53,062 nt of DNA, taken from Pseudomonadales bacterium. Its GTDB lineage: Bacteria > Pseudomonadota > Gammaproteobacteria > Pseudomonadales > Azotimanducaceae. Both the position numbers and the translations under genes were made by a program. The notes under the pieces were generated by a model. That model did no database searches and was not told the DNA's origin. It saw only the letters and a program-made list of their open reading frames with translations. This document shows, piece by piece, positions 17,044 through 19,320 of this stretch (position 1 is its first letter; every line of letters starts with the position of its first letter). The stretch is from NCBI GenBank assembly GCA_019090615.1, contig JAHRVQ010000034.1, positions 1 to 53,062 on the forward strand. Reading direction: 5' to 3'.

Positions 17044-18039
17044 ATGGCACTACACACGGAAAACATAACGCAATCTGAAGAGCCCATAACCATAGCTCGA
17101 ATGCCCGAGGCTGATGTAAAAAAAGCTAAAAAGGCAGGAAGAAAAAAAACAGCGAGTAAAAAAAGTGAAGACACAACGACGACCTCTGGGGCAAAAAAGG
17201 TCGCAAAAAACCTTGATGCAACCCAGCTCTACTTAAATGAAATTGGATTTTCTCCCCTACTAACCCCCGATGAAGAAGTTTATTTTGCCCGCCAGGCACT
17301 ACGTGGTGTCGCGTCTGGTCGGAAACGTATGATTGAAAGCAATCTGCGTTTAGTGGTTAAAATTTCTCGACGATATCTTAATCGGGGATTGTCACTACTA
17401 GACTTAATTGAAGAAGGCAATCTCGGTTTAATACGCGCTGTTGAAAAATTTGATCCCGAACGAGGCTTCAGATTCTCGACCTATGCGACCTGGTGGATCA
17501 GGCAGACCATAGAGCGGGCCATTATGAATCAAACACGCACCATACGTCTGCCCATTCATGTGGTTAAGGAACTGAATGTCTATCTTCGAGCGGCAAGAGA
17601 GCTATCCCAGAAGCTGGATCATGAACCGAGCCATGAAGAAATAGCGGATCTGTTGGACAAGCCGGTTGCGGATGTTAAACGTATGATGGGGCTTAACGAA
17701 CGAGTCACGTCCGTTGATACACCATTAGGCCCTGATTCTGATCGTTCTATACTTGATACGGTGCCAGATGTGCGTCAGGCAGACCCTGCAGAAAAACTAC
17801 AGGACTCTGATCTAAGGGCGAATATAGACCATTGGTTAACGGAACTGTCTGAAAAACAGCGAGAAGTTATTTCCAGGCGTTTTGGTCTTCGCGGCTATGA
17901 AATGAGTACTCTTGAAGAAGTTGGCCATGAAATAGGTTTGACCAGAGAGCGGGTGCGCCAGATTCAGGTAGAAGCGTTGAAGCGACTACGGGATACTATG
18001 GAAAAACAGGGCTTGTCAGCCGATGCGATTTTTCAGTAG
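17044..18039 (+). CDS. rpoS: RNA polymerase sigma factor RpoS
   Basis: RpoS is the sigma factor for stationary phase and general stress. Region 1.2 begins with [17 protein letters not shown]. Region 2 contains the near-invariant [26 protein letters not shown] and the [20 protein letters not shown] core (each abbreviated by its key residues here: [18 protein letters not shown] and [14 protein letters not shown]). Region 4 ends with the helix-turn-helix [19 protein letters not shown]. The open frame reaches back to a TTG at 17011. ATG at 17044 (MALHTEN) has AGGA 8 bases upstream and matches pseudomonad starts, giving 331 residues. The N-terminal 60 residues are unusually lysine-rich. Its position after nlpD and before an sRNA and fdxA matches Pseudomonas. 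Confidence 0.97.
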
Positions 18040-18159
18040 TGCGGTGTTAAGCCAATGAAGTTGCAGGATGCCTGGTGTTACCTGATTTTTTAATTGCAGC
18101 ATTTTAATGTCAGGTTTTATGATGCTATTTCCTGGATAGTTGAGTGTAATTGTTAGAAA

Positions 18160-18181
18160 GTGGGGGTTAGTAGGCCCCCGC
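18160..18181 (+). terminator. stem-loop downstream of rpoS
   Basis: GTGGGGG and CCCCCGC pair over 7 bp (one G-U) around TTAGTAGG. TTTGAATAAA follows, so the U-run is weak. It starts 120 bases after the rpoS stop and is the best candidate for the end of the nlpD-rpoS transcript. Confidence 0.55.
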
Positions 18182-18302
18182 TTTGAATAAACCCCTCCTG
18201 CATATTCTAATTGGATGGTATGGCTGGCTAAGTTCCAGTCATACTTCTACGGTTTGAAACTGGTTCGTAGATACCGTAGAGCCTTTTGATTTGAAATTAT
18301 TC

Positions 18303-18340
18303 GTTACCAATTTCTTGTTACCAATTTCTTGTTACCAATT
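18303..18340 (+). repeat. 14-bp tandem repeat between rpoS and the sRNA
   Basis: GTTACCAATTTCTT occurs at 18303-18316 and 18317-18330, followed by a partial third copy at 18331-18340. It is non-coding and lies about 260 bases before the sRNA hairpins. The rest of 18182-18570 is AT-rich, and I see no gene in it. Confidence 0.9.
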
Positions 18341-18599
18341 ACTGCGGCAAATTAAGCTGGGGCAAACTTTTTTTATTCCCTGTGGACGTTATTGTCTAAA
18401 TTGTTTTAGCGCGTTTAGCTGAGGCTTCGGTGGTTAGTTGATAGATATGGCAGGTTTTTTGTGAGAGATATCTGTAATCCGTGTAGGACATTGACCATAG
18501 ATTAGGTTGGTGTTTGAGATAAGTTGTTGATTTTATAGTGGTTATTTTTTTGTCGAAGTTACTGTCAATCAAGGCTGGGTTTGTCCAGCCATTGCCATG

Positions 18600-18750
18600 A
18601 TAGACTGAAACCCCATACAGGATGTAGGGGTACCTAGGATAGGTAAGCTGAACTAACAGGTTTTACGTCAGCGTAGAGTAAACTTAGCAGGGATGCCTGA
18701 AGGGAGTCAGCAAACAGGAAGCGATTCGCCGGTCGTTTCCTGTTTTTTTT
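18600..18750 (+). ncRNA. rsmZ: RsmZ/CsrB-type regulatory small RNA (CsrA/RsmA sponge)
   Basis: Consecutive hairpins present GGA in the loop, the binding pattern of CsrA/RsmA. Hairpin 1 is at 18611-18630 (CCCC-A-UAC, loop AGGAU, GUA-GGGG). Hairpin 2 is at 18631-18645 (UACCU, loop AGGAU, AGGUA). A longer arm pair GCUGA/UCAGC at 18647-18672 encloses ACAGG. Hairpin 4 at 18687-18696 is GCA-GGGA-UGC, and hairpin 5 at 18697-18710 is CUGA, loop AGGGAG, UCAG. An intrinsic terminator containing a further AGGA follows at once. No open frame covers the region. The place, between rpoS and fdxA, is that of Pseudomonas rsmZ. Such RNAs titrate CsrA under GacS/GacA control. The 5' end is not fixed; a weak GacA-box-like TGTAAT-N6-AGGACA lies at 18473-18490. 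An inverted repeat GGCTGG/CCAGCC at 18573-18590 lies just upstream. Confidence 0.82.
18713..18750 (+). terminator. strong intrinsic terminator of the sRNA
   Basis: AACAGGAAGCGA at 18713-18724 pairs with TCGTTTCCTGTT at 18733-18744 over 12 bp (one G-U), with an 8-base loop and a run of eight or more T after the stem. This is a textbook Rho-independent terminator with no protein-coding gene just before it, which independently supports a small RNA gene. Confidence 0.93.
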
Positions 18751-18830
18751 GTAAAAAAATAATTGCTTGTGCTGTTGAGCAAATAAAGCGGTGGCCTACA
18801 TGGGTTGGCCTCCGCCGAATTGGGACTATT

Positions 18831-18882
18831 TAGCGTTCAATTAGCTATACCTAGCGTTCAATTAGCTATACCTAGCGCTCAA
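18831..18882 (-). repeat. 21-bp tandem duplication at the fdxA 3' end
   Basis: A 21-bp unit (plus strand TAGCGTTCAATTAGCTATAC plus one C) occurs at 18831-18851 and 18852-18872. A partial third copy, TAGCGCTCAA, at 18873-18882 is the last codons and stop of fdxA read backwards. The stop-codon region of fdxA therefore appears to have been copied downstream twice. Confidence 0.9.
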
Positions 18883-19195
18883 GGTGCTCCATTTTATCTT
18901 TCACTTCTGCCCAGTCTTCTGCATCGGGTAGTGGGTCTTTCTTTTCTGTGATGTTAGGCCAAACTTCTGCCAACTCTGCATTTAGGTCTAAAAATGGCTG
19001 TTCGGCCTCAGGTAGTTCATCTTCAGAAAAGATAGCGTCGATCGGGCATTCAGGTTCACACAGGGCACAATCAATGCACTCATCGGGATTAATAACAAGA
19101 AAATTTGGCCCTTCGTAAAAGCAATCAACGGGGCAGACTTCAACACAGTCTGTGTGTTTGCATTTAATGCAGGCATCACTCACAACAAAGGTCAT
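18872..19195 (-). CDS. fdxA: 7Fe ferredoxin FdxA
   Basis: This is a small cytoplasmic electron carrier with one 3Fe-4S and one 4Fe-4S cluster. The nine N-terminal cysteines are Cys9, 12, 17, 21, 25, 40, 43, 46 and 50, in the spacing of the Azotobacter FdI/Pseudomonas FdxA family ([20 protein letters not shown] and [17 protein letters not shown]). The C-terminal 50 residues are acidic, as usual. The frame extends to a TTG at 19201, but ATG at 19195 begins the conserved [12 protein letters not shown] and has AAGGA upstream, giving 107 residues. It lies downstream of mutS on the same strand, as in pseudomonads. Confidence 0.97.
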
Positions 19196-19320
19196 GGACA
19201 AGATCCTTTTTTAGAAAAGTTAATTAAAATAAAGTTTTTAGAAGCAGAATAATTTTGAAATAAGAAGTAGATCTATTAATAAAGAAAGTATTCTATCATC
19301 TTTTTTTGTCGGGACAAGAA

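Follow-up and report, generated by a model that had tools for sequence, protein, structure and literature searches.

The neighbors of rsmZ include nlpD, rpoS, fdxA, and mutS, and Pseudomonas RsmZ, with a length of 133, has eight GGA motifs, three of them in loops, and one 18-bp UAS (PMC4353343, excerpt). IHF has been reported at the rsmZ promoter in P. fluorescens (PMC4682653, excerpt). Among the enterobacterial RNAs, CsrB (RF00018) is 369 nt long in E. coli. It has many more motifs, about 18 (PMC7652899, excerpt). In E. coli csrB, the repeat TGTGAGAGATCTCTTACA is followed 5 bp downstream by TGTAGGAGA, with a putative IHF site between two crosslinking sites; the corresponding repeat of Salmonella csrC is TGTGAGACATTGACCATT (PMC4682653, excerpt). 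The CsrA site selected by SELEX is RUACARGGAUGU, with an ANGGAN loop (PMC7652899, excerpt). Csr sRNAs of other marine Gammaproteobacteria are treated in PMC9927453 and PMC11882849. In the literature searched, on rsmZ with rpoS and fdxA, GacA boxes, CsrA sRNA prediction, and marine families, the RNA considered here was not described.

The window, the whole stretch of 53,062 nt that was analysed, includes between rpoS and fdxA a segment of about 140 nt that very probably encodes a small regulatory RNA of the RsmZ/CsrB kind. Its features and those around it are as follows:

17044..18039, + strand: rpoS (NF004207, 514.9 bits, cut-off 394)
18460..18477, + strand: GacA/UvrY-type box 1, TGTGAGAGATATCTGTAA, which shares 14 of 18 positions with the inverted repeat of E. 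coli csrB
18482..18499, + strand: GacA/UvrY-type box 2, TGTAGGACATTGACCATA, 15 of 18 positions identical to the Salmonella csrC repeat, the best match in the window
18520..18532, + strand: IHF-like site, TAAGTTGTTGATT, an exact match to the consensus YAANNNNTTGATW
18601..18606, + strand: probable -10 box, TAGACT, placed by eye and aligned with TAGACT, TATATT, TAAACT, and TAATAT in relatives
18607..18750, + strand: predicted sRNA of RsmZ/CsrB type, from the match to model R1 (below) and the lack of an ORF; 5' end uncertain by several bases
18611..18630, + strand: 5' hairpin with a GGA loop, AUACAGGAUGU, read in the sequence as CCCC-ATACAGGATGTA-GGGG, with one bulged A in the stem if the inner TAC/GTA pairs too
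18631..18645, + strand: second GGA hairpin, UACCU(AGGAU)AGGUA, read in the sequence
18648-18673, + strand: arm pair GCTGA...TCAGC enclosing ACAGG, read in the sequence
18687..18696, + strand: third hairpin, GC(AGGGAU)GC, read in the sequence
18697..18710, + strand: fourth GGA hairpin, CUGA(AGGGAG)UCAG, read in the sequence
18712..18750, + strand: intrinsic terminator, a 15-pair stem at 18712-18745 (GU allowed) with T's to 18750
18872..19201, - strand: fdxA (NF045490, 170.6 bits, cut-off 135)

From 18040 to 18871, no overlapping ORF of at least 60 aa was found with ATG, GTG, or TTG starts; the segment is non-coding and ends in an intrinsic terminator. This agrees with the initial annotation, which had noted no coding gene ahead of the terminator; the GGA hairpins and other elements it described can all be read where it placed them, and its terminator with a T-run is present, although the 12 bp it gave fall a little short of the 15 pairs found. 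The RNA has five GGA motifs in all, four of them in loops, and a CARGGATG core at 18688. AUACAGGAUGU resembles the SELEX site RUACARGGAUGU but is one base shorter, and AUACAGGAUGU and CAGGGAUG are each a near match or a match to the SELEX core with its ANGGAN loop (PMC7652899, excerpt). Two short repeats were seen elsewhere in the intergenic region: a direct repeat of TTACCAATTTCTTG in about two and a half copies, at about 18304-18340 between rpoS and the boxes, and an imperfect tandem repeat of AGCGTTCAATTAGCTATACCT, at about 18831-18876, which runs into the end of fdxA.

Like Pseudomonas RsmZ (RF00166), the window RNA lies between rpoS and fdxA, in the same orientation, and has a similar length, GGA hairpins, a GacA box, a terminator, and, by sequence, an IHF-like site. 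It differs in having two tandem boxes where rsmZ has a single UAS and fewer GGA motifs with more of them in loops (PMC4353343, excerpt), and the RF00166 score in the window's genome is not significant. With enterobacterial CsrB/CsrC it shares the repeat, the 4-5 bp spacing, the TGTAGGA half, the IHF-like site, and GGA hairpins, but it is much shorter than CsrB.

Taken as a single sequence, the GGA hairpins of the window are only modestly unusual against chance. Three GGA loops with stems of at least four pairs were matched in 65 of 2000 dinucleotide shuffles, and four with stems of at least three pairs in 102 of 2000; the GGA count is equalled in 2.7% of the window's 106-nt stretches, sampled every 5 bases. 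The fold of 18598-18752 has an energy of -50.8 kcal/mol (z -3.0; two of 200 shuffles as good), a stability due in part to the terminator. It is the comparative evidence from relatives that places the hairpins above chance.

Public RNA models do not recognize the RNA, which is too diverged for them. The whole window had no match to Rfam at gathering thresholds; CsrB (RF00018) gave a sub-threshold match at 18543-18750, with 12.9 bits against a gathering cut-off of 71 (E 0.27), and PrrB_RsmZ (RF00166, cut-off 44 bits) had none in the window's whole genome, leaving the RNA below the score for membership in either family. That a sequence search would miss the RNA had been forecast in the initial annotation; the check it proposed, with these two covariance models, recognises the RNA with neither. 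Likewise, 12 loci of the family had no Rfam match at E up to 1. A blastn search against plasmids also found no match.

Relatives were found by other means. When 206 genomes of the family were searched at the DNA level, 15 had a match: that of the window, nine more with it at the fdxA locus, and five with it elsewhere (L084-L088), which were dropped because tblastn found no fdxA, nlpD, or mutS nearby. A pattern scan of named genomes gave 10 contigs, all metagenome-assembled; nine of them correspond to the nine above, and the tenth (L098) to G086. A covariance model, R1, was built from 11 RNA sequences including the window's. Against the 206 genomes it had 11 matches of at least 87 bits (G000, G005, G085, G086, G087, G165, G167, G168, G177, G178, and G181). 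All of these belong to the set used to build it, so that no strong member was gained; the window's match, at 18626-18750 with 87.4 bits, is one of these. R1 did add a diverged copy in G159, at 24 bits, where the order is nlpD-rpoS-RNA-fdxA-mutS as in the window and boxes and GGA hairpins are present. The resulting 12 RNA-bearing genomes span six genus labels (g1, g2, g8, g14, g24, and g25). In all 12 the RNA adjoins the 3' end of fdxA, with mutS next in 11 (the twelfth stretch, L115, ends before mutS).

Several weaker R1 matches were dropped, L125 and L126 because they coincide in part with the end of fdxA and the terminator of that gene, and L124 and L127-L132 because none of the four neighbor genes was found by tblastn. 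A second weak match in G177 (contig C62) has 19.6 bits. As an undecided case, G007 (L133, 18.6 bits), which adjoins fdxA and has GGA loops, was not counted; nor were three rpoS-fdxA gaps from other families of the order: L040 (21.8 bits, E 0.00024), L052 (12.6 bits, E 0.11), and L036, where R1 found nothing. The L052 gap contains two GGA-rich stretches, each with a terminator-like hairpin, which are possibly two tandem sponge RNAs.

The distribution of the RNA is patchy. By the initial annotation, hairpins not conserved in relatives would have spoken against such an RNA; they are kept in 12 genomes of the family, but the four other genomes of the window's own genus had no match to the RNA by DNA search or R1. 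In one of this genus, G004, rpoS is 36 nt from fdxA with no match to the RNA, while in G002 and G003 neither rpoS nor the RNA was found at the locus.

The 5' hairpins provide an independent test, since detection of the 11 RNAs relied chiefly on their 3' portion. Eleven of the 12 RNAs have, in their first 45 nt, a stem of at least four pairs with a GGA loop, and the stem of the twelfth has three; the window qualifies through its second hairpin, of five pairs. None of 2000 shuffled sets reached 11 (mean 4.1, maximum 9), with RNA starts placed by eye and shuffles that ignore the relatedness of the sequences. The four loop-proximal pairs show three to four pair types at each position, and the stem letters vary from genus to genus and also inside g8 and g14, and are alike in g24. 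Such stems do not align by letter, which is why the RNAalifold structure of R1 includes only the terminator and a 2-pair hairpin and why the hairpins were tested sequence by sequence. Over the 11 RNAs there are 53 GGA motifs against 36.1 in shuffles (none of 1000 reaching 53), and 17 in loops of stems of at least four pairs against 7.5 (two of 1000 reaching 17). Toward the 3' end, the alignment shows a GC(ARGGAW)GC hairpin in which GCA is invariant and the rest largely conserved, with alterations in L080 and L081, and a terminator strongly conserved across 11 sequences. Stems that change around GGA loops that stay are as would be expected of a CsrA ligand. They argue against a GacA-controlled sRNA of Hfq type that base pairs with mRNAs, its GGA loops being incidental; conservation of the terminator and, in part of the set, of a CUACCACGGC-like stretch could be explained by a pairing seed, but CUACCACGGC is absent from the window's RNA, which thus has no such shared seed, and this explanation is very unlikely.

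Upstream, the predicted promoter is that of a Gac-controlled sRNA, with transcription probably starting at about 18612. The tandem boxes at 18460-18499, which are of GacA/UvrY type by sequence, consist of TGTGAGAGATATCTGTAA, 4 bp, and TGTAGGACATTGACCATA, and agree with E. coli csrB (PMC4682653, excerpt) at 23 of 28 positions; the highest score elsewhere in the window is 18, and that in 20 simulated windows 21. A strict box, TGTAAGNNATNNCTTACA, with three mismatches allowed, missed them and gave one unrelated match where 2.39 are expected. Box 1 aligns in relatives but is more degenerate, with TGTARG in only four of 11 sequences. In box 2, TGTARG is found in all 11, the window included, and also in L123, and in L076 the box is a perfect palindrome, TGTAGGACATGTCCTACA. 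A composite box pattern occurs once in the window's genome; as it was drawn from an alignment that includes the window, only this uniqueness is informative, and a further sponge RNA behind another kind of box may exist. The IHF-like site, judged against YAANNNNTTGATW, which we take to be the IHF consensus, is exact in three of 11 sequences, has one mismatch at the equivalent place in four more, and is weak or absent in four; counting both strands, the window has four exact occurrences of the consensus.

Two regulators expected for such an RNA, CsrA and GacA, are encoded in the window's own genome. CsrA, searched there, has one match (PF02599, 88.8 bits, cut-off 27), and GacA scores 306.5 bits against a cut-off of 280. 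The GacA gene is clustered with genes of 607 and 195 aa, presumably uvrC and pgsA as judged from their first residues. The sensor domain of GacS/BarA, PF09984, was not found in this genome, although the E. coli control was positive; many of its hybrid kinases resemble BarA, and the one that was scanned scored 395 bits, where the cut-off for BarA is 890, with only kinase and receiver domains in Pfam. Across the family, a GacA-family match (E up to 1e-60) is present in all 12 RNA-bearing genomes and in 105 of 194 others; 11 of the 12 and 50 of the 194 have one that exceeds the cut-off (Fisher p 0.0014 and 7e-6, respectively, in tests that ignore relatedness). Only G159, G165, G167, G168, and G178, among 117 genomes, have two GacA-family matches at this E limit, and all five carry the RNA; a stop codon interrupts one of the two in G165 and both in G168.

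The place of the RNA was compared with that of recognized rsmZ genes. Only RF00166 matches over the cut-off were used, because at E up to 0.001 the model also matches two of 14 control genomes, neither over the cut-off. Of the 293 genomes of the order, 12 have such a match, each of them with family label f21. Within 1.5 kb of these loci, six have both rpoS and fdxA flanking in the window's orientation, three have fdxA only, two rpoS only, and one neither. The window RNA likewise is flanked by rpoS and fdxA and encoded on the same strand as rpoS, an arrangement that is usual for PrrB_RsmZ but does not define it. By this shared place and orientation it is an rsmZ ortholog by position, not a member of RF00166 by score.

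RpoS itself exceeds the curated cut-off in only 22 of the family's 206 genomes. Among the RNA-bearing genomes it was found only in G000 and G159; in the other ten, which are drafts, no RpoS matched at E up to 1e-100, and the RNA there is between nlpD and fdxA. With RpoS not found in ten of 12, the tie between the RNA and rpoS seems to reflect a gene order that was inherited, not a requirement. That the stretch is only a 3' untranslated tail of rpoS with its terminator and chance GGA hairpins is extremely unlikely: the RNA's terminator is the first of two terminator-like sites on this strand from rpoS to the end of fdxA and the GGA density, within the top 3% of stretches, is not unique, but ten of 12 genomes have the RNA, with box and promoter, where no rpoS was found ahead of it, GacA-type boxes stand between rpoS and the RNA in the window, and the 5' hairpins are retained with changed stems.

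The window RNA is, with high probability, a GacA-activated, CsrA-sequestering sRNA that is rsmZ by position. The RsmZ/CsrB-type RNA that the initial annotation placed between rpoS and fdxA is upheld by the kept GGA hairpins, the tandem box, the presence of CsrA and GacA, and the position and orientation of rsmZ. From the sequence we infer its transcription, the binding of GacA and IHF, the sequestration of CsrA with its stoichiometry, and the physiological output, as follows. Phosphorylated GacA (UvrY) would bind the two tandem boxes, whose centers lie about 120 and 145 bp ahead of the predicted start, and IHF would bend the DNA that separates these boxes from the promoter. Transcription would stop at the terminator of 18712-18750; the four GGA loops of the RNA could bind about two CsrA dimers, and this sequestration would release the mRNA targets of CsrA.

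The lineage is known here mostly from metagenome-assembled genomes. The finding adds to the range of the rsmZ type a family of Pseudomonadales in which public RNA models miss the RNA, and the tandem-box promoter signature may find further members. As the RNA is present where RpoS was not found, the division of labor between RpoS and Gac/Rsm becomes testable across relatives. Tentatively, the Gac/Rsm switch of this lineage might consist of one short sponge RNA behind a csrB-like tandem box, the RNA might have outlived RpoS, and it is conceivable, if somewhat doubtful, that, where the sigma factor has been lost, the route from GacA through the RNA to CsrA alone runs the stationary-phase switch.
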